A stretch of DNA of 64,000 nt from Sediminihabitans luteus (GTDB taxonomy: Bacteria; Actinomycetota; Actinomycetes; Actinomycetales; Cellulomonadaceae): NCBI RefSeq assembly GCF_002797595.1, contig NZ_PGFE01000005.1, positions 1 to 64,000 of the forward strand. The letters run 5' to 3'. The position numbers and the translations under genes are program-made. A model generated the notes under the pieces. That model saw only the letters and a list, made by a program, of their open reading frames with translations, did not search any database and was not told the DNA's origin. Of this stretch, positions 34,004 through 45,024 are shown piece by piece (within the stretch, counting starts at the first letter, position 1; the number at the start of each line of letters is the position of its first letter).

Positions 34004-36006
34004 GCGTCGCTCCTTCCGGGGGGTCCGGCCGGGGGCCGGGGGTGGTCGTCGGTGCTGCTGGTGCCCGTGTCGTCGCCGCCGTCGGGGTTCGCTGTGTCGG
34101 ACGCCGGAGCCGGGCTCGCGTCGGTGGCAGGCCTCACGCTCGGGGTCGGCGTGCTCGGGGTCGGCGTGCTCGGGACGCTCGCGCTCGGGGTCGGTGCGCT
34201 CGGTGGCCGGGGCACGGGCGTGATCGACGGGACGGGCGTCGTCGAGGCCACGGGCTCGTCGGCGGCCGGGGCGGGGTCGGGCGCGCCGTCGAGCGTGCTC
34301 TCGGTGGGCTCGGCACCGTCGTGGTCGGCACTGTTGTGGTCAGCACTGTCGTGCCCGGCACTGTTGTGGTCGGCACTGTCGGGGTCGGCACCGTCGTGCC
34401 CGGCAAGGCCACCGGCCGTCGCGTGATCCACGGCGACGGCCCCGGTCGCGTCGTCGTCCCTGATCTCGTCGCTGCTGTTCTCGCTATCGCCGATCACGGG
34501 CACGAGCTCGGTGCCCTGCTCGTCGGCGCCTTCGGCGGCCTGCGCGCGGCGACCGCCGGGGCCGACGACGATCGGCGACGCCTTGCCCACGTCGGGCTCG
34601 CCCACGGCGTCGACGGTCTCGACGTGGTGCACGATGCCCCCGGCCGCGACCTGCCCGCGCACCGGCAGGGCGGAAGGCCGGCGGGCGGCGTCCGACACCC
34701 GCAGGAGGAGGGCCACGATGATCCAGTTGGCCAGCACGGACGACCCGCCCTGCGCGAGGAACGGCAGCGTCAGGCCGGTCAGGGGGATGAGGCGGGTGAT
34801 GCCGCCGACGACGACGAACACCTGGATCGCGATGGCGAACGCGAGACCGCCCGCGAGGAGCTTGCCGAACCCGTCGCGCACGCCGATCGCGGTGCGCAGG
34901 CCGCGCTCGACGAGCACGAGGTAGAGCGCGAGGATCGCGAGCAGGCCCGTGAGGCCGAGCTGCTCGCCGAGCGCGGTGTAGATGAAGTCGGAGTACGAGA
35001 ACGGCACGAGCTGCGGGTAGCCCGCGCCCCAGCCGGTGCCGAACAGGCCGCCGTTGGCGAGCGAGAACCAGCCCTGCGCGAGCTGGAACGAGCCGCCCGG
35101 GTCCTTGTCGTAGACGGTCTGGTCGAACGTGTGGAGCCAGCCCTCCATGCGCTGCTGGATGTGGCTCACGGTCAGGATCGCGAACGTCGCCCCGGCGGCG
35201 AGCAGGCCGAGGCCGATCACGATCCAGCTCACGCGTTCGGTCGCGATGTACAGGACCACGACGAACAGGCCGAAGAAGAGCAGGGACGTGCCGAAGTCGT
35301 TCTCGAACACCAGGATCGCGAGCGACGCGACCCACACGAGCATGATCGGCCCGAGGTCGCGCAGGCGCGGCAGCTGCAGGCCCAGCACCTTGGGGCCGGC
35401 GAGCGCGAGCGTGTCGCGGTTCGTCACGAGGTACCCGGCGAAGAAGATCGCGAACGCGATCTTCGCGATCTCGGCGGGCTGGAACGAGAAGCCCGCGACG
35501 TTGATCCAGATGCGCGCGCCGTAGACCTCGGTGCCGATCGGGGTCAGCGGCAGCATCACGAGCACGAGGCCGACGACCATCGCGGTGTACGTGAGCCCGC
35601 GCAGCGCGCGGTGGTCGCGCAGCCAGACGACGAGCACGACCGCGAGGATCACGGCCACGCCGCTCAGCGCGAGCTGGCCGGCCGCGAGGTCGGACTCGCC
35701 GCCCGCGGCGATCTTGGTCGCGTCGTAGCGGTAGATCGCCGCGAGGCCGATGCCGTTGAGCGCGACCGCGATCGGCAGGATCACCTGGTCGGCGTAGGGC
35801 GCGCGCCAGCGCAGCACGAGGTGCATGCCGAGGCCGAGCACGATGATGCCCGCGCTCTGCAGGTAGAAGTCGCCCGGCAGCGACCCGTCGACGCGCATGC
35901 TGACGGTCGCGTACGCGCCGATCCCGAGCGCGAACGCCAGCAGGAGCATGACGAGCTCGGCGCCGCGGCGCGGCGTCCTCGCGGTCGGCTCGATCGACAC
36001 CATCAC
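34000..36006 (-). CDS. rodA: SEDS-family glycosyltransferase RodA/FtsW with extended cytoplasmic tail
   Basis: Multi-pass enzyme that polymerises lipid II. The first 450 residues give about 10 or more membrane helices with SEDS motifs ARIWINVAGFSFQPAEIAKI, FENDFGTSLLFF, HTFDQTVYDKDPGGSFQ and GLTLPFLAQGGSS. The last 210 residues are hydrophilic and low-complexity, with SADHNSAGHD repeats and PTPSTPTPS runs. The family usually ends soon after the last helix. Start at 36006 (GTG, next codon ATG) overlaps the stp stop. Confidence 0.95.
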   Translation of the reverse strand: MMVSIEPTARTPRRGAELVMLLLAFALGIGAYATVSMRVDGSLPGDFYLQSAGIIVLGLGMHLVLRWRAPYADQVILPIAVALNGIGLAAIYRYDATKIAAGGESDLAAGQLALSGVAVILAVVLVVWLRDHRALRGLTYTAMVVGLVLVMLPLTPIGTEVYGARIWINVAGFSFQPAEIAKIAFAIFFAGYLVTNRDTLALAGPKVLGLQLPRLRDLGPIMLVWVASLAILVFENDFGTSLLFFGLFVVVLYIATERVSWIVIGLGLLAAGATFAILTVSHIQQRMEGWLHTFDQTVYDKDPGGSFQLAQGWFSLANGGLFGTGWGAGYPQLVPFSYSDFIYTALGEQLGLTGLLAILALYLVLVERGLRTAIGVRDGFGKLLAGGLAFAIAIQVFVVVGGITRLIPLTGLTLPFLAQGGSSVLANWIIVALLLRVSDAARRPSALPVRGQVAAGGIVHHVETVDAVGEPDVGKASPIVVGPGGRRAQAAEGADEQGTELVPVIGDSENSSDEIRDDDATGAVAVDHATAGGLAGHDGADPDSADHNSAGHDSADHNSADHDGAEPTESTLDGAPDPAPAADEPVASTTPVPSITPVPRPPSAPTPSASVPSTPTPSTPTPSVRPATDASPAPASDTANPDGGDDTGTSSTDDHPRPPAGPPGRSDA

Positions 36007-37283
36007 GGGCTCGCGGTGGGCTCGGCGGTGGGTGCCGCTGTCGTGGGCGCGTCCGTGGGCTCGTCGGTGGGTTCCGCGGTCGACGGCGTCAGGACGGCCT
36101 CGTCCGAGATCTCGCTCGCGCGCGAGACGGCATCCTCACGGCTCGACGCCGGGATCGTCTCCTCGAGGCGGTTCTGGTAGAGCTCGGGCAGCGACGCGAC
36201 CAGGGTGCCCGTGGTCTCGACGGGCGACGAGAGCGAGATCGGGCCGAGGTCGGTCGGGACGCCCTGGTAGACCGCGACCTCGCCGTCGGCGATGCCCACG
36301 AAGTACTGCGTCTGCGTCCACGCGTACCCGGCCCAGCCCGCGATGCCGAGGCCCACGAGCAGCAGCGTCGAGCCGATGACCGGCACCCACGGGCGCCGGG
36401 GGTCGTCGCGCACGTCGGCGTCGTCCTCGGGCAGCTCGGGGAGGTCGACGTCCTCGGGGTGCTCGGGCGCGGGGGGCAGCAGCTCGGCCGACGCGGCCGA
36501 GCCCACCACCTGGGGGGCGGACGCCGGAGCCGCGGCCGCGGCGTCGTCGAGCGCGTCGAGGTCGACGACCTCCGTCACGACGGCCGTGATGTTGTCGGTG
36601 CTGCCCGCGCGCAGGGCGAGCTGCACGAGGCGGTCGGCGCACGCGTCGACGTCCGCGACGCCCTCGAGCGTGGCCGTGAGCTCGTCGGGGCTCACGAACC
36701 CGGAGAGGCCGTCGGAGCACAGGAGCCAGCGGTCGCCCGGGCGGGCGTCGTGCAGCGACATGTCGGGCGTGAGGTCGACGTCGAAGTCGCCGAGCACACG
36801 CATCACGACGTTGCGCTGCGGGTGCGTCTCGGCCTCCTCGGGCGAGATGCGGCCAGTGTCGACGAGGTGCTGGACGAACGTGTGGTCGGTCGTGGCCTGC
36901 GTGAGCACGCCGTCGCGCAGCAGGTACGCGCGCGAGTCGCCCAGGTGCGCGAGCACGAGCTGCGGGCCCGCGAGCAGCAGCGCCGTGACGGTCGTGCCCA
37001 TGCCCGTGAGCTCGGGCGACACCTCGGTGCGGTGCACGAGGTCCTGCCGGGCGCCGTCGACCGCCTCCTCGAGCGCGCCGAGCGCGGCCTCGGCCGCGGG
37101 GCGGGGCTCGTCGAGACCCGTGAGCGCCGCGATCGTCAGGGCGGAGGCCACGTCACCCCCGGCGTGCCCGCCCATGCCGTCGGCGACGACCAGGAGGTTG
37201 TCCCCGGCGTAGCCCGAGTCCTGGTTGTTGGAGCGCACGAGCCCGACGTCGGACCGTGCGGCGTACCGCAACGCGATGTTCAC
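36003..37283 (-). CDS. stp: PP2C-family serine/threonine phosphatase
   Basis: Metal-dependent phosphatase reversing PknA/PknB phosphorylation. 426 residues from the GTG at 37283, preceded by AGGGGTAG. A TTG at 37307 would overlap fhaB and is less likely. The N-terminal 240 residues carry PPM motifs (SNNQDSGYAG, VADGMGGHAGG, HLGDSRAYLL, DGLSGFV). A linker, one membrane helix (about 345-365) and a Thr/Pro/Glu-rich outside tail follow. Confidence 0.95.
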   Translation of the reverse strand: MNIALRYAARSDVGLVRSNNQDSGYAGDNLLVVADGMGGHAGGDVASALTIAALTGLDEPRPAAEAALGALEEAVDGARQDLVHRTEVSPELTGMGTTVTALLLAGPQLVLAHLGDSRAYLLRDGVLTQATTDHTFVQHLVDTGRISPEEAETHPQRNVVMRVLGDFDVDLTPDMSLHDARPGDRWLLCSDGLSGFVSPDELTATLEGVADVDACADRLVQLALRAGSTDNITAVVTEVVDLDALDDAAAAAPASAPQVVGSAASAELLPPAPEHPEDVDLPELPEDDADVRDDPRRPWVPVIGSTLLLVGLGIAGWAGYAWTQTQYFVGIADGEVAVYQGVPTDLGPISLSSPVETTGTLVASLPELYQNRLEETIPASSREDAVSRASEISDEAVLTPSTAEPTDEPTDAPTTAAPTAEPTASP

Positions 37284-37290
37284 TTCGGTG

Positions 37291-37839
37291 CTACCCCTGG
37301 AGCTCAACGGTGCTCTGGCCGATCCGGACGGGCGTGCCCGGGCTGATCTGGACGACGCCGGAGATCCTCTTGTCGTGGATGTAGGTGCCGTTCGTGGAGC
37401 CGAGGTCCTCGACGTACCACTGGCCGCCCTGCGGGAAGACGCGGGCGTGCCGCGACGAGGAGTAGTCGTCCTCGAGCACGAGCGTGCACCCCGGGGCGCG
37501 GCCGATCAGGATGGCCTGCGACGTCAGGGGGATCGTGGTGCCGCGCAGCGCGCCCGTCGTCACGACGAGTCGCGTGGGGCCGGCGCTGCGGGCGGGGGTC
37601 GCAGGCGGGGCCGCCGGGGCGGCGGCGACACGCTGCGGGGGAGCGGCGGCCGCGCGCGGGGCCTGGCCCGCGCTGCGTCGTCCGGCAGGGGACGTCGCCG
37701 GGACCGGACGCTTGCGGGCGTCCTTGGTCGAGCGGGACCCGAACAGGTCGCGCCGGAGCACGCCCACGACGGAGAGCACGAACACCCACAGCAGCACGAG
37801 GTAGCCCAGCCGCAGCAGGGTGAACGTGAGCTCGCTCAT
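37291..37839 (-). CDS. fhaB: FHA-domain membrane protein FhaB (FipA)
   Basis: 182 residues: an N-terminal membrane helix (about 7-27), an Ala/Pro linker and a C-terminal FHA domain with IGRAPGCTLVLEDDYSSSRH and DLGSTNGTY, which bind phosphothreonine. In mycobacteria the orthologue FipA links PknA signalling to FtsZ and peptidoglycan synthesis. It lies 10 bases after fhaA. Confidence 0.95.
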   Translation of the reverse strand: MSELTFTLLRLGYLVLLWVFVLSVVGVLRRDLFGSRSTKDARKRPVPATSPAGRRSAGQAPRAAAAPPQRVAAAPAAPPATPARSAGPTRLVVTTGALRGTTIPLTSQAILIGRAPGCTLVLEDDYSSSRHARVFPQGGQWYVEDLGSTNGTYIHDKRISGVVQISPGTPVRIGQSTVELQG

Positions 37840-37849
37840 ACCGGCGGGA

Positions 37850-38563
37850 TCACCACTCCTCGTCTCCGTGGCGCTCGGGTGCGCCCGTCCAGAACATGAT
37901 GCGTGTACGACCGATGGTCAAGGTGTTGCCGTCCAGGAGCGTAGCGGCTGGAACCTGGTGCCCCTCGACGTACAGGCCGTTGGTCGAGCCGAGATCCGTC
38001 GCGACCACGCCGTCGGGCGTGACGCGGATCTCGAGGTGACGGCGCGAGACACCCGCGTCGTCGACCACGATGTCGGCCTCCGCACCACGGCCGATGACCG
38101 TGACCGGGCCCGTGAGCAGGTAGCGCTGGCCGTCGATGTCGACCAGCGGGTGGCGCGCGTTGGGCGAGGCCGTGGCCGGCGCCGTGGCGCCGCGCACGCT
38201 CGCCGAGCGCAGCTCGAAGCGACCCGGGTGCAGGTCGAGGTTCTCCTCGAAGCTCACGCTCACCGGGCCGACGAACGCGTAGTGCTGGCTCGCGGCGTAC
38301 TCGGTGACGTTCGTGGCGAGCTCGTCCGCGAGCGTCTCGGCGCCCCACCCCTCGATCTGGGTGAAGTCGTCGCCCGACAGCTCGATCGTGAACTCGTTCG
38401 GGGCGACGGTGCGGTCGCGGCCGACGACGGCGGCGCGGTCGTCGACCTCGCGGCGCAGGGCGCTCGCCAGCTCGACGGGCTTGACCTCGCTGCGGCCCAC
38501 GCGCGCGAACGTGTTGTTCACGACGCGCTCGACGCCCTTCTCGAAGCGGTCCAGGACTCCCAT
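37850..38563 (-). CDS. fhaA: FHA-domain protein FhaA with DUF3662
   Basis: 237 residues, first gene of the kinase operon. The N-terminal DUF3662 domain (MGVLDRFEKGVERVVNNTFAR) is joined through a linker that is short for the family to a C-terminal FHA domain with IGRGAEADIVVDDAGVSRRH and DLGSTNGLY. FhaA binds phosphorylated partners such as the MviN pseudokinase in mycobacteria. The ATG at 38563 follows a GGGAGGTG ribosome binding site. Confidence 0.95.
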   Translation of the reverse strand: MGVLDRFEKGVERVVNNTFARVGRSEVKPVELASALRREVDDRAAVVGRDRTVAPNEFTIELSGDDFTQIEGWGAETLADELATNVTEYAASQHYAFVGPVSVSFEENLDLHPGRFELRSASVRGATAPATASPNARHPLVDIDGQRYLLTGPVTVIGRGAEADIVVDDAGVSRRHLEIRVTPDGVVATDLGSTNGLYVEGHQVPAATLLDGNTLTIGRTRIMFWTGAPERHGDEEW

Positions 38564-38879
38564 GCCACCTCCCTCCGTTGCAGTGCTCGCGCCGTGCCCT
38601 CGGGCACGGCCTCGCGCCCGCGCAGCGCGCAGGCGATCCCCCCGATGGTAACGACCGGCAGGGACGCCAGCCCCCTGGGATGCGGCCCGAGATGTGGAAG
38701 TCCTGGGAGTATCCGGAACGGGTGTCGGATATCCACAGTTCCGTGATCGGGCCGTGACCCGCTCGTGATCCCTGGCGAGATGTCGGACGGCGGGTGGGCG
38801 GGGTCGCGTCCAGGGCTGTCCGGGGCCGGCCGAGGCGATGCGGGGACCACGCCCGCACCGTGATATCTTTCTACGGCGC
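38564..38879. other. Spacer between fhaA and tRNA-Leu
   Basis: 316 bases without a convincing gene. It should contain the promoter of the leftward fhaA operon and that of tRNA-Leu. A one-mismatch DnaA box ATATCCACA lies at 38729-38737. Confidence 0.5.
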
Positions 38880-38962
38880 GCGCGAGTGGCGGAATGGCAG
38901 ACGCGCTGGCTTCAGGTGCCAGTGTCCGAAAGGGCGTGGGGGTTCAAGTCCCCCCTCGCGCA
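38880..38962 (+). tRNA. leuT: tRNA-Leu (CAG)
   Basis: 83-base type II tRNA with a long variable arm. Acceptor GCGCGAG pairs with CTCGCGC plus A. The anticodon stem is CTGGC/GCCAG with loop TTCAGGT carrying CAG. No CCA is encoded. tRNA-Leu genes are frequent integration sites, and accessory DNA follows here. Confidence 0.97.
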
Positions 38963-38997
38963 CAGTGGGGCTGTTGTCGATAGGCAGCCGATGTATT

Positions 38998-39039
38998 GAC
39001 GAATCTCCCGTCCGGAGTCATCCGGGCGGGAGATTCGTC
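38998..39039 (+). terminator. Hairpin terminator after tRNA-Leu
   Basis: GACGAATCTCCCG (38998-39010) pairs with CGGGAGATTCGTC (39027-39039), with an inner CCGG/CCGG pairing. A TTTC run follows. Confidence 0.87.
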
Positions 39040-39197: not shown

Positions 39198-39354
39198 TCA
39201 GGGGCCGCGAGTGCGGTAGATCCAGTCGGGGTCGTCCAGGTCAGGCTTCTCGTCGAGCGTGATCTGCCATGGGTCGGGCAGCTCACGCTCGAGGTACCAC
39301 TGGTGCAGGTGGCGCATGTTGTAGCCGGCGAACGAGTTGAGTCCCTGAAGTGGG
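39198..39354 (-). pseudogene. C-terminal fragment of an unidentified gene
   Basis: About 50 codons with strongly GC-biased third positions and a natural-looking protein end. The translation includes NSFAGYNMRHLHQWYLE, then PDPWQITLDEK, and ends DWIYRTRGP-stop. Upstream the frame runs straight into a terminator hairpin, so no full gene precedes it. I do not recognise the family. It could also be a 39-residue gene starting at the internal Met of NMRHLHQ, but no ribosome binding site is clear. Confidence 0.4.
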
Positions 39355-39367
39355 GCTCCCCGTTCCC

Positions 39368-39402
39368 GAAACCCCCGGCCGGTCGATCCGGTCGGGGGTT
39401 TC
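39368..39402. terminator. Hairpin terminator
   Basis: GAAACCCCCG (39368-39377) pairs with CGGGGGTTTC (39393-39402), extended inward by CCGG/CCGG. It abuts the gene fragment on the left. Which transcript it ends is unclear. Confidence 0.75.
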
Positions 39403-39680
39403 GCCATTCCGTGGGGTCGGTTCGTGTCTGGCGGCATCGCCGGGGATGCCAGACGGCGCGTGGCGCGGTTTCGCGCGGTCGTTCAGCCGCGAAGGTGCGT
39501 GGTTGCGGGCACCTGGCGTTGCCCGTGGGCGCGGCGATTCGGCCGAGATCGTCCTCTCCGTCGTTCAGGTCGTCCTCTTGTCCGAGGCGCGCTGCTCGGG
39601 CGGAGGGCCGCGTCGGTGACGTCGCCCACGGCGTGTCGAATGCTCGTGCAGGACCGCCTCCCGAGGAAGGAGGTGGCGAG

Positions 39681-39773
39681 ATGACGAAGTCATCGAAGTC
39701 GTCGGGTAAGCCCTCGAAGTCTGCACTCTCGAAGGCCGTCGAGGCACTCGGCAGCGTCTCGTCGAGCAAGTAG
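39681..39773 (+). CDS. 30-residue Ser/Lys-rich microprotein
   Basis: ATG at 39681 follows AGGAAGGAGGTGGCGAG, one of the strongest Shine-Dalgarno matches in the window. The product MTKSSKSSGKPSKSALSKAV continues EALGSVSSSK-stop: ten serines and seven lysines in 30 residues, no Cys, a possible short helix in the middle. The frame is also open upstream, but only this start has a ribosome binding site. No known family is recognised. It lies between gene scraps and the DUF2599 gene. Confidence 0.55.
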   Translation: MTKSSKSSGKPSKSALSKAVEALGSVSSSK

Positions 39774-39949
39774 GCAAAACCTAAGGCCGCCCGACGCTGG
39801 GTGAGGGCTGAACCGGTGCACGGGTGGCCTTGAGAGAGCCTCCAACAGGTCCGCACGAGACAGTGTTGCTTTCGTGCCCGTCTGCCGCTAATGTCAGCGA
39901 AATCCCGTGAGCAATTCGCAACGATGCATCGGGGCTAGGTCGTGCTCGC

Positions 39950-41008
39950 TTGGCGGGCACTCGAGGCTGGAGGGCAGCAGTCATTCTAAAGAGAAAGTTC
40001 GGCGCCATCGTAGGCGCCGCAGCAATTGGTCTTGGACTGGGCACAGCCCCACCAGCCATCGCTAGCGGGCAAGGCAGCGCCGCCATTGCAATCGATGCGA
40101 TCGGGGACATCGCTCCGGAGTCCCTCGATGCGGTCGCCACGAACGACGGCGTAGTCGTCTCTGATCCGAGCGGTATGGAGATTCCGAGCGGTATGGAGCC
40201 GGGTGAATTCGAGCGGTCTATGGTCGAGAACGCGCTGATCGACCCGACCGATCCGGACAGCGAAATCAAGGTGGATGTTCCCGACGACCCGGCCGACGGG
40301 ATCACCGTGGAGCAGGCCGGATTCGAGAGTTTCGTCATCGGTCTCCCGAACAGCGATCTCGCTGACGATGCGGAGTACGGTGATCTCGACATTGTGACCT
40401 ATGACAACAACGACGGGTCAACGACCGTACCCATCCTCAATCCGGATGGAACCGTGCAGATCACAACCGTGATCTCCGGACTCGACGCTCCGACACGGTA
40501 CACCTATCCGATCAACCTCCCGAAGGGCGGCGAGCTCGTCGACGCCGGCGATGGATACTTTGCCATCCTGCAAGCCGACGCGACTCCCCTAGCAATGATC
40601 GAACCTGCCTGGGCTCTCGATGCGGACGGAAACGACGTCAATACCCACTATGAGATCGAAGGGAATTCTCTAGTCCAGGTTGTGGAGCACGGAGCGGGGA
40701 CCGCGTATCCCGTCGTTGCTGACCCTGCAGTGGTGGGAAAGTACATCAAAAAATTCACTATTACAGAGAAGTCAAATGGCTTCACATTCGGCGTCTATCC
40801 GGTTAACGCCTGGAATGTTACGGTGAGTCCAGACGAGTACTATGCGGAGTACAAGCTGTACGTCAACTCCCACTATGAGGGGCAGAAATACTACGACCAA
40901 ATCAGGTGCCACTGGGACTTCGCACCCTTCAAGACCCCGTGGAACATCGATTCCTGGCGTCCGAACGTTGGGTACGCCAAGACCGTTCTGGCCAAGTGCA
41001 ACCCGTGA
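39950..41008 (+). CDS. Secreted DUF2599-domain protein
   Basis: Exported protein of about 341-352 residues. An N-terminal signal peptide (LKRKFGAIVGAAAIGLGLGT, cut near AIASG) is followed by an acidic middle and a C-terminal DUF2599-like domain with YYDQIRCHWDF, WNIDSWRPNVGYA and a terminal TVLAKCNP. The two Cys in this domain could pair. Start codons are problematic. A TTG at 39950 lacks a ribosome binding site, whereas an ATT at 39983 has GGAGGG (39969-39974) 8 bases upstream. GC is lower than in the neighbours. The stop overlaps the next gene. Confidence 0.8.
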   Translation: MAGTRGWRAAVILKRKFGAIVGAAAIGLGLGTAPPAIASGQGSAAIAIDAIGDIAPESLDAVATNDGVVVSDPSGMEIPSGMEPGEFERSMVENALIDPTDPDSEIKVDVPDDPADGITVEQAGFESFVIGLPNSDLADDAEYGDLDIVTYDNNDGSTTVPILNPDGTVQITTVISGLDAPTRYTYPINLPKGGELVDAGDGYFAILQADATPLAMIEPAWALDADGNDVNTHYEIEGNSLVQVVEHGAGTAYPVVADPAVVGKYIKKFTITEKSNGFTFGVYPVNAWNVTVSPDEYYAEYKLYVNSHYEGQKYYDQIRCHWDFAPFKTPWNIDSWRPNVGYAKTVLAKCNP

Positions 41009-41277
41009 CGAAGACGTCGAGAGCACGCCGACCGTGGAAGCTGCTCATGATCCTCGGCGGTTGCCTAATGGTCGCAGCGGCAGCTGCTGCGATAATCGAG
41101 GGGTACGCGTCAGACGCGCAGGAGCGCGTCGGTAGCTCGGTCCTCGACTTGACCCTCGCGGTCGTGTCCGTTCTCGTCACAATTGTTGGGGCAATTGGAT
41201 ACGCCCGGTCGAACAGGATCGAGCGCACCGCGTCCCAGGGCCACGAACACAACGGTGAACCAGGGTCTGACAGGTAG
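41005..41277 (+). CDS. Small two-helix membrane protein coupled to the DUF2599 gene
   Basis: 90 residues from the GTG at 41005, overlapping the previous stop in a GTGA junction. After a basic start (TKTSRARRPWK) come two helices (about 13-32 and 47-68), then a hydrophilic tail. No family is recognised. Tight coupling to a secreted protein suggests a functional pair, for example export, anchoring or immunity. Confidence 0.7.
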   Translation: MTKTSRARRPWKLLMILGGCLMVAAAAAAIIEGYASDAQERVGSSVLDLTLAVVSVLVTIVGAIGYARSNRIERTASQGHEHNGEPGSDR

Positions 41278-41330
41278 GTGATGGACCCTGGCGGACCGAG
41301 GTGCCCTTCTGGATGTACCCGTCAGGAGGT

Positions 41331-41500
41331 TTAGTGACAGTTCGGGCGGCGGGGGTAGGTGAGGTCCTCCCTCTTGTCAACCGGAATGGCACCAACCTCC
41401 TGGCAGGGTATGCCTAGCCGGTGCATCCGCCTGGCTGCCCTCACCTCGGCGTACGGGGTCCGGGACTTGCCGAAACCGCCCACAGTGAGAGGGCTTCGTT
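41331..41500 (-). pseudogene. Possible C-terminal remnant of an unidentified gene
   Basis: The minus-strand frame ending at 41331 reads SRTPYAEVRAARRMHRLGI, then PCQEVGAIPVDKREDL, and stops soon after. Residue choice looks protein-like, but there is no start, ribosome binding site or recognisable domain, and the frame merges rightward into a terminator and antisense sequence. It is a weak candidate for a relic of mobile DNA. Confidence 0.25.
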
Positions 41501-41558: not shown

Positions 41559-41707
41559 GTCGGCAAGGGCAGAGGAACTCCGAGTCCGCGGGGCAGGCCG
41601 GCCCTCGCGTCGTGGCACCGGTTGCAGTACCCGCGGTCGAGGGGGACCGTCAGCGAGGGAAGCGCGTCCGGCGCGCCCCGCAGTCCCCGCCCACCGAGGG
41701 AGAAGAC

Positions 41708-43615
41708 GTGCCGTACGCGCCGAAGGACGCCACCCCCACCACCGCCGCCACGAGCGAGCACGCACGCGTGCTCTACGCGCTCGACGACGTCGAGGACTTC
41801 GACACCGCCCGTCGAGGAAAGATCGCGGACATCCCCGCGGGCAAGGTCCTGCTCGACGACGGGAGCGTCGCGTACGACGAGTCGACGCTCGCGTTCCTGG
41901 ACGACGACGCCGCGCGCAGCCCCGACACGGTGAACCCGAGCCTGTGGCGCCAGTCGCAGGTCATCCACGAGCCCGGGCTGTACAAGGTCGTCGACCGCCT
42001 GTACCAGGTCCGGAACAACGACATCGGGAACCGCACGATCGTCGAGGGAGACGACGGACTGGTCGTCATCGACTGCACGACGGGCGTCGAGGTCGCGCAG
42101 CAAGGCCTGGCGCTGTTCCGTGAGCACGTCGCGGACAGGCCCGTCGTCGCGGTGATCTACACCCACACGCACATCGACCACTACGGCGGGGTCAAGGGAG
42201 TCGTCGACGAGGCCGACGTCGCCTCGGGGAAGGTCCCGATCATCGCGCCCGGGACGATCGCGTCGTTCGACAAGTTCGCGATCGGGGAGAACGTCGTCGC
42301 GGGCAACGCGATGAGCCGGCGCGCTGCCTACGCGTTCGGGAACCTCCTGGTCAACGACGCGCAGCAGATGATCACCTGCGGCATCGCATCCATCGGTGGG
42401 CACGGGATCACGGTCTCCTACATCTCACCGGCGGACCCGATCACCGAGACCGGACAGGTGCGCTCGATCGCCGGGCTGACGTTCGAGTTCCTCTACGCGC
42501 CCGACACCGAGGCGCCCGAGGAGATGCACATCTGGATCCCCGAGCTCAAGGCGCTCACGTGCGCCGAGAACGCGAATCAATCGCTGCACAACATCCAGAC
42601 GCTCCGCGGCGCACGCACGCGCGACGCCCGGAACTTCGCGCGGTACCTCGACGAGACGATCGTGCGCTGGGGTGACGAGGTCGAGGTGCACTTCGGCCCC
42701 ACACATGGCCGGTCTGGGGCAACGCGAAGGTCGTCGCCTTCCTGGAGTCCCAGCGCGACACCTACAAGTACATCCACGACCAGGCCCTGCGGCTCGCGAA
42801 CAAGGGATACACGCCCCTCGAGGCCGCAGCGGTCGTCGAGCTGCCCGAGGCGCTGCGCCGGCAGTGGTTCAACCGGGGCTACCACGGCACGCTGCACCAC
42901 AACGTGCGGGCGGTGTTCACCAGGGAGCTGGGCATGTGGGACGGCGACCCGGTGTCGCTGCACCCCCACACCCCGGTCGACACCGCGGCGCGTTACGTCG
43001 CAGCCTTCGGGCGCGACGCGATCCTCACCGAGGGGCGCCGCGCGTTCGACGAGGGCGACTACCGCTGGGCGACGCAGATCCTCCACCACCTCGTCTTCGC
43101 CGATCCGGACGACCGTGAGGCCAAGAACCTCCTGGCCGACGCCTACGAGCAGCTCGGATACCAGGCGGAGGGTCCGCAGTGGCGCGGCATCTACCTCACG
43201 TCGGCGCGCGAGCTGCGCGAGGGAGTGATCTCCGCGCGGTTCGCGAGCGGCAGCCCCGACACGATCGCGGGGATGCCGATCGACATCCTGCTCGACTACG
43301 CCGCCGTGCACGTGATCGGCGAGAAGGCCGCCGATGTCGACGTGCGGTTCGACGTGGAGTTCACCGACCGGGAGGAGATCTGGTCGGTCCGAGTCGCGAC
43401 CGGCGTGCTCAACGCCCGCTCCGGGGCGTCGACCACCGCTCCGCTCACGGTCCGTGCCCAAAGCGCTTGCCGCCGCCGTGGTCTTGCAGCCCGCGGCGGC
43501 GACACGGCTCGCGACGGCAGGGAAGGTGACGCTCGACGGAGACACCTCGGTGCTCGACGCCTACGCGGCGGTGCTCGACGAGTTCGACCCGAACTTCCCG
43601 ATCGTCACCCCGTAG
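41708..43615 (+). pseudogene. Linear alkylsulfatase (SdsA1/BDS1-like), two frameshifts
   Basis: Zinc-dependent hydrolase of linear alkyl sulfates such as SDS, metallo-beta-lactamase fold. GTG at 41708 after GAGGGAG. The metal motif THTHIDHYGG is near residues 152-161, and the C-terminal half has RGYHGTLHHNVRAV and a sterol-carrier-like end. The reading frame shifts near 42697-42700 (a CCCC run where CCCCC would restore HFGPHTWPVWGN) and shifts back near 43450-43458. A corrected protein would be about 635 residues. Either a recent pseudogene or two sequence errors. Confidence 0.85.
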
Positions 43616-43625
43616 CGGCCGGCGG

Positions 43626-43669
43626 GACGCCCTCGGGGGCCGGGCGACACCCGGTCCTCCGAGGGCGTC
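43626..43669. terminator. Bidirectional terminator between sulfatase and DUF1254 genes
   Basis: GACGCCCTCGG (43626-43636) pairs with CCGAGGGCGTC (43659-43669), with additional GC pairing inside. It sits between two convergent genes. Confidence 0.85.
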
Positions 43670-43675
43670 GCGCCG

Positions 43676-45024
43676 TCAGTCGAGGGCCACGACGTCGGGA
43701 AGGGTCCAGGACTTGTCGAAGAGCGCGCTCGTGGGCCCGTAGAAGCGGACGAGGATCTCCAGGCGGCGGTCGGGGTGGCTGGGGAGCCAGTTCGACGCAC
43801 CGCCCTCGGGCGGCGTGGGACCGACGTGGAGGTCGACCGACCCGTCGTCGTTCGTGCGGAGTCCCGGGGTGGTCGACGCGCGGCTCGCGTACGGGACCTC
43901 GCGCACGAGGGCGTGCGTCTCCCGGTCGTACGCGGTGGCCGACCAGTAGAGCTCGACCGGCGGGTCGGCCGGGACGGTCAGACGGTAGTGGCGGCTGCCC
44001 TCCAGCGGTCTGCCGTCCGCGTCGCGGATGCTAATCAGGTAGAACTGGCCGGCGCCCGTGTGCTTGATGCCCGAGAAGGCCCAGTAGTACGCGCCCCCGC
44101 GGGCGTCGACGGGTACGAGTCCGGGGCGTCGAACCCCGTGCTCGCCGCCTTGACGAGCTCCGGCGAGGCGGGGAGCGCCCACCCGGTGCCGGGGATGAAG
44201 GGCGTCGCGAAGAACGACACGTACTGTCCGTCGAGCCACTCCCGGGCCTCGCCCGCAGCGTCGGACAGCGCGGCGCGCGTCTCGTCGTCCGGCGCGAACG
44301 TGGTGCCCTTGGCGATGCCGAGCGAACGGAGCACGTCGATCATGACCCGGTCACGTTCGAGCCACGGCTGGTGCTGGACGAAGTCGGCGAGGACCTCGAA
44401 GAAGCTGACGTCGTAGGCGATCGTCGCGTCGAAGTCCGCGTCCGCCGCGTCGACGAACACCGTGTCGGCGGGCGCGCCGGCCTCCGACAGCGGGTAGACC
44501 GCCAGCTGCTTGCCGTAGGCGACGGCGGCCTCGACGTCGGAAGCCTCGCCGCTCGCGATGCTGGAGCGCAGCAACGCGTAGCCGACGTCGACCTCTGACC
44601 GGAGCGGGACGTAGCCCGGGGGCACGTCGCCTTCGAAGGCCGGGGGAAGGATCAGGTAGCGACCTCCGGCGCCCTGGTCGACGCCGGCCTTGCCGACGTC
44701 CTCCAACGGGACCTGCCACCCGTCCATCACCGACCCGATGATGGCCGCACCGTCGTCCGTGGCGGCCGGGATCTCCAGCACGACGGGTCCCTGGCTCACG
44801 TCGTAGAACGGCATGAAGTAGATCGCGTCCGGGTTCGGGGTCAGCGTCTGGTTGCGCCAGTCCAGCAGCCGCGACCAGTACACGACCTGGTTCGGCCCGC
44901 ACCCGAGGCGCTCGGCGGCGTCCCGCATCAGCGCGTAGTTCACGGCAGGGATGCCCCACGCCGCGGCGTCGACCCCGCGGCGCCGGACGGTCCTCGTGTG
45001 CCGCTCGTCGTTCGCGCTCGCCAT
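43676..45024 (-). pseudogene. DUF1254/DUF1214-domain protein, one frameshift
   Basis: ATG at 45024. The first 300 residues match the DUF1254 half (GIPAVNYALMRDAAERLG, NPDAIYFMPFYDVSQGPVV). The DUF1214 half follows in another frame (GAYYWAFSGIKH, YRLTVPADPPVELYWSAT, NWLPSHPDRRLEILVRFYGP). The break is near 44110: one extra G in the coding strand would restore DSYPVDARGGAYYW. The corrected length would be about 449 residues. No signal peptide is seen. The biochemical role of the family is not established. Its neighbour is also frameshifted. Confidence 0.82.

Follow-up and report, generated by a model that had tools for sequence, protein, structure and literature searches.

The locus lies in a 64,000-nucleotide stretch of DNA from Sediminihabitans luteus, which is referred to below as the window. 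An open reading frame (ORF) at positions 39681 to 39773 of the forward strand encodes MTKSSKSSGKPSKSALSKAVEALGSVSSSK and ends with TAG. Of the 30 residues, 11 are Ser, 6 are Lys, 1 is Glu, and none is Cys, in line with a preliminary description of the product as a basic, Cys-free peptide that is one-third Ser. The near-ideal ribosome binding site claimed in that description was also confirmed: AAGGAGGTG occurs a single time on the two strands of the 64-kb window, and AAGGAGGTG followed by 4 to 8 nucleotides and ATG was found once, compared to a mean of 0.01 in 100 dinucleotide shuffles (with a match in one shuffle). The features used in this analysis are as follows.

38880 to 38963, forward strand: tRNA-Leu(CAG), conserved in position in three of three congeners, similarity to which ends shortly beyond it
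39640 to 39827, forward strand: extent of DNA homology to L036, an intact gene of Cellulosimicrobium (70% over 189 columns, 5e-24)
39664 to 39675, forward strand: ribosome binding site AGGAAGGAGGTG, 5 nt from the ATG
39681 to 39773, forward strand: 30-codon ORF from ATG to TAG, the N-terminal part of a gene for a small basic Ser/Lys-rich protein (homologues and alignments)
39771 to 39773, forward strand: TAG stop in the reading frame of the family, after the conserved ...SSSK (protein searches and DNA alignment)
39774 to 39811, forward strand: probable remnant of the C-terminal third of the family, with ...TLGEG-TGA legible in a frame that differs from that of the ATG (alignments and frame check)

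Frames of 25 to 35 codons are common in this GC-rich DNA, as would be expected if this were a chance frame preceded by a chance ribosome binding site. The probability of this explanation is negligible, since the ORF is homologous, at both the protein and the DNA level, to a conserved family that shares its start and since its binding site has no second copy in the window; on these grounds, a chance ORF was rejected.

The window and three congeners have in common an FHA-domain gene and the tRNA-Leu(CAG), and a comparison of 7.5 kb around and after the tRNA gene showed that DNA similarity to the congeners ends at ∼39049. A search of the three congener genomes with the protein of a relative (G032, see below) gave no match to the small gene at E values of ≤0.1. 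GC content, calculated over 500 bases at a time, ranges from 0.69 to 0.77 at 36000 to 38999 and from 0.55 to 0.64 at 39500 to 41499; the ORF itself has a GC content of 0.68 and sits at the margin of this dip rather than within it. The end of congener similarity and the GC dip agree with the earlier placement of the ORF in an accessory stretch after tRNA-Leu, and we read the stretch beyond tRNA-Leu as putatively acquired accessory DNA. None of the repeats sought in this stretch was judged to be an attachment site.

The same stretch contains other ORFs. On the reverse strand, 39198 to 39437 encodes 79 aa, has a weak partial relative past the tRNA-Leu of a congener (L073, 37.5% over 40 aa), and is possibly another remnant. 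In the GC-poor part, a 352-aa ORF (39950 to 41008, forward strand) seems, by eye, to begin like a signal peptide and matches DUF2599 (3.1e-10) at its C terminus; its end is overlapped by a 123-aa ORF (40906 to 41277) that, by eye, resembles a membrane protein. At 41612 to 44034 on the forward strand, a gene of the metallo-beta-lactamase fold (Pfam Lactamase_B) looks frameshifted, with overlapping frames at 41612 to 43228, 42904 to 44034, and 43334 to 43615.

An actinobacterial family of small basic proteins

A first search of 59 genomes, including that of the window, gave seven matches at E values of ≤1, namely, the window, a good partial match in G032 (67% over 24 residues), and five chance-like matches. 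With the G032 protein, 20 of 221 family genomes (own included) matched at E values of ≤0.1, in 22 places. By reading, 16 of these are intact, one is the window, one (L027) is chance-like, and four are altered or disrupted: the C terminus of L013 is changed, L029 has lost its N terminus, and both L025 and L026 appear disrupted. When named genomes were scanned, 24 loci were obtained, a set that overlaps with the first one; they are in Cellulomonas, Cellulosimicrobium, Actinotalea, Sanguibacter, Arthrobacter, Paeniglutamicibacter, Microbacterium, Nocardioides, Glycomyces, Leifsonia, and other genera. In an order-wide search, matches were obtained in 8 of 297 genomes, that of the window among them; in another of the eight (G635), the match is short and contains a TGA. 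A phylum-wide search, with a profile that contained the window's own row, matched 2 of 396 genomes, again including the window's own, and the other match (G406) reads closer to PHROG 5079. A tblastn search of plasmids and phages with the G032 protein gave nothing at E values of ≤10, a result for which the low-complexity filter is possibly responsible and which does not imply absence. MTKSSKSSGKPSKSALSKAVEALGSVSSSK had no match in Pfam, NCBIfam, or PADLOC, the G032 member matched no Pfam or NCBIfam model, and none of the family members examined had a Pfam or NCBIfam match above the curated cutoff. In the part of the literature that could be consulted by peptide fragments, PHROG number, and topic, no paper was evidently about this small-protein family.

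An in-frame ATG is present at 22 of the 24 named loci, and these 22 encode 36 to 44 aa; the exceptions are L040, which lacks any usual in-frame start, and L050, with a GTG start. Each of the 22 has a purine run upstream of the ATG, with GGAGG within 20 nt in 12 of them, and ends in (S/T)TLG(K/R)G, which is STLGKG in 20. The intact relatives are basic and rich in Ser, Lys, and Ala, and the consensus of the actinobacterial family that we assembled reads MxKPSKAALSKAGxTLASxSSSKxAKSKAGSTLGKG; the intact G-genome member L023 is five residues longer. Relatives with a conserved start and a purine-rich upstream site do exist, contrary to one half of the refutation stated in the preliminary description (no such homologues and no translation), whose small-gene claim is upheld for the start, which is genuine and shared by the homologues. 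The claim does not hold for 30 residues as a complete protein, given the length of the relatives and the stop and frame change in the window copy.

Uncorrected medians of pN and pS were 0.163 and 0.567 (435 pairs, 30 members), indicating that the protein is conserved, although the set was chosen by a pattern that fixes conserved residues and the pN is therefore somewhat low. The predicted small-protein family is thus conserved in sequence, and it is patchy in distribution. Two alignments were used below. A2 includes the window row and a GTG start written as M (L050) and omits L013, L025 to L027, L029, and L040; A5 contains 20 loci, some of whose rows start a few residues late, and excludes the window and, among the named loci, L037, L040, L043, L050, and L052. 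A hairpin directly 3' of the stop, with z scores of ≤−2.39, was found in 8 of 10 relatives that had been chosen by eye among the 24, consistent with a single-gene unit; the score was weak in L036 (−0.87), in L039 (−1.24), and on the 3' side of the window copy (−1.10 and −0.54). AlphaFold2, run on L042 with 20 aligned members, predicted one helix at residues 10 to 23 (mean pLDDT of 68, pTM of 0.30). Solved structures searched with A2 gave one weak match (2ymu, E value of 0.0082) with no stretch passing alone, and the same search with alignment A4 gave no match.

Reading frame of the window copy

The ORF at 39681 to 39773 is very likely the front two-thirds of a disrupted gene of this actinobacterial family and is probably a relic. 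The window copy resembles the KPSK...KAGSTLGKG family in its start, KPSK, ...SSSK, and, with some of the conserved residues changed, its helix region, and DNA homology runs across and beyond the gene; it differs in the TAG after SSSK and in a C-terminal remnant that is out of frame. It has the ATG, the purine-rich upstream site, and the M-x-K...KPSK N terminus of the family but lacks an in-frame C terminus of the type KSKAGSTLGKG-stop, so we class it as a disrupted homologue and not as a full member. A search with the protein of a single relative (G032) matched the window copy at 39705 to 39791 with one TAG inside (E value of 8.6e-4), and in the order-wide search, a profile without the window row likewise crossed one TAG (E value of 1.6e-7).

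Downstream of the TAG, ACG-CTG-GGT-GAG-GGC-TGA, which ends at 39811, is the counterpart of TLGKG-stop in the family, and its TGA (39809 to 39811) aligns with the stops of the relatives L036 and L017; the ATG lies in a different frame. The DNA alignment to the Cellulosimicrobium gene L036 contains a one-base length difference 3' of the TAG, in a GC-rich run, and the homology crosses both breaks and extends beyond the stop of L036. Decay is the simplest account of two lesions within one short gene. The copy would have been acquired together with the accessory segment beyond tRNA-Leu and would then have decayed.

Could the gene be intact in the organism, with the TAG and the one-base difference being sequencing or assembly errors? 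The sequence comes from one assembly, the length difference is located in a GC-rich run, and the gene at 41612 to 44034 likewise looks frameshifted. Nevertheless, two separate lesions of different types would be required, three long ORFs just upstream (36003 to 38563) are open, and the assembly is 98.65% complete with no contamination, all of which makes such errors highly improbable. Programmed readthrough of the TAG was rejected because the tail lies in another frame and because the other TAG within a full-length match (L078) is at codon 3. That copy (L078, 1501 to 1611) reads as intact save for this TAG and represents an independent inactivation.

A further explanation is that the 30-aa peptide still works, its N-terminal basic helix being active and its C-terminal third dispensable. 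The perfect ribosome binding site and the ATG are kept, the predicted helix is within the retained part, and none of the 9 residues of this part that do not vary among the 20 intact members of A5 has been lost, so the short peptide may well be made. It may once have been under selection, or may be so now. However, the retained part departs from the family at 2 of 7 nearly invariant residues (G17 to V and A21 to G), the missing C-terminal motif shows little or no variation among the intact members, no member listed as intact stops at this position, and the C-terminal remnant is still legible downstream. We thus consider a working short peptide improbable. The median pN of the window copy to its relatives over the retained part is 0.267, a high value but one that is equaled in two members and exceeded in one, and the 30-codon allele was found in one genome only. 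Any 30-aa product would be without the conserved C-terminal motif and probably functionless. Our verdict for the window locus is ordinary gene decay. The locus itself is of little weight beyond illustrating that a near-ideal binding site in front of an odd peptide can mark the front of a broken gene.

Neighbors and possible role of the intact gene

The neighboring ORFs of at least 60 aa at the 24 loci were clustered with a GC3 filter; the largest cluster comprises 3 loci and overlaps the small gene. ORF calling gave nothing near L037 and little near L040 and L051. Pfam and PADLOC scans covered 84 neighbors that are no shorter than 85 aa and no more than 2.2 kb away; they come from 22 of the 24 named loci, with L037 and L051 contributing none. 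The matches listed include YhcG, multiubiquitin/ThiF/DUF6791, a Schlafen-type helicase, an integrase, and a resolvase, with PADLOC E values down to 0. Controls were 84 of 100 proteins sampled at set positions from 20 stretches in 11 genomes. At E values of ≤1e-10, the neighbors matched 37 PADLOC families (25 of the 37 listed) versus 21 for the controls (best, 2.2e-64), counting families and not proteins; as the controls matched PADLOC models too, a role in defense is no more than a possibility. Judged solely from coordinates, a multiubiquitin pair (L038 and L049) and a YhcG nuclease pair (L039 and L041) adjoin the small gene, and either pair may represent one event. In L038 (6007 to 8108, from an actinobacterial metagenome-assembled genome) and L049 (5995 to 8108, from Nocardioides marmoriginsengisoli), the small gene is directly behind a run that includes the multiubiquitin gene.

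The family could act as a toxin within a toxin-antitoxin pair or as an antimicrobial peptide, as its proteins are small and cationic, its distribution is patchy, several copies are inactivated, and some copies lie beside defense-type genes. Against this, no partner gene recurs among the 24 loci in a clustering confined to protein-coding frames of at least 60 aa, and the proteins are hydrophilic by eye and without a family match; we regard a toxin or antimicrobial peptide as very unlikely. The toxin proposed in the preliminary description accordingly found no support in the neighbor clustering or in Pfam, NCBIfam, and PADLOC, nor did its signalling peptide, since a signal peptide for secretion is absent by eye.

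Composition, charge, and the lone predicted helix suggest an association with nucleic acid or the ribosome. Of the roles named in the preliminary description, that of a small DNA/RNA-binding protein may hold for the intact family. The intact protein would be short, cationic, and mostly unstructured, with one predicted helix, and might bind nucleic acid or a different polyanion (the ribosome, for example). The patchy distribution and the occurrence of several broken copies point to a dispensable cargo, and the intact gene might be carried on its own by mobile elements, prophages, and accessory islands. A small cationic protein that associates with nucleic acid and travels as mobile cargo would be our guess, a weakly supported one drawn from composition. 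As no Pfam or NCBIfam match exceeds the curated cutoff in the members examined, an intact relative merits a functional test.

Relation to PHROG 5079

All seven proteins compared with PHROG 5079 in this way, namely, L054 of the related actinobacterium G037 and six phage or plasmid proteins, matched it clearly, with E values of 1.2e-14 to 7.5e-26. The match of the actinobacterial family is weak (15 of 32 members of A2; best E value, 0.015), the window peptide matched none of the PHROG profiles at E values of ≤5, and PHROG 5079 had no match in the genome of the window at E values of ≤1. At the latter threshold, it matched 11 of 19 genomes of relatives, nearly all weakly, as well as 4 of 14 controls, and the match was clear in G037 only.

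A tblastn search with the L054 protein at E values of ≤1 returned 7 plasmid and 10 phage records (1e-3 to 0.8), with phiC2 and an Acinetobacter phage appearing twice each. Phage copies lie near repressor or antirepressor genes in Javan246, phiC2, and Javan290 and near an antirepressor in a fourth phage. On plasmids, a helicase, a restriction system, or a reverse transcriptase is found in the vicinity, but copies also adjoin unrelated genes, such as those for mercury resistance. A Halomonas plasmid carries an 83-aa ORF (L063, 4875 to 5126) in which the PHROG 5079 unit appears, by eye, twice in tandem.

A broader proposal is that the actinobacterial family and PHROG 5079 form a pan-bacterial superfamily of small cationic Ser/Lys/Ala proteins, each carried as a lone cargo gene in the immunity regions of prophages, on plasmids, and in defense islands (where the genes concerned are multiubiquitin/ThiF, YhcG, reverse transcriptase, and restriction-modification genes) and serving phage-host conflict, for example as a nucleic-acid-binding helper or inhibitor. 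This proposal has an outside chance of being correct; if it is, the window copy would be a discarded piece of such a module. Independently of any role in conflict, the locus leads to an uncharacterized small-protein family that is conserved at the protein level and appears to be distantly related to proteins of Streptococcus and Clostridioides phages.

The kinship was assessed by profile comparison (hhalign) of A2 with nine PHROG-type proteins, which aligned over 30 gapless columns with an E value of 2.4e-5, a probability of 75%, and a score of 26.58; none of 200 column shuffles reached this score (best, 19.15). Most of the aligned members of PHROG 5079 differ from the actinobacterial family in having RDGR in the middle, ALSQ or ALAQ, and a Lys-rich tail, whereas the order and spacing of ...KA..xL...SK..KS.AGS.L are alike by eye. 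On this likeness between sequences, we take the actinobacterial family and PHROG 5079 to be one putative, distant superfamily.
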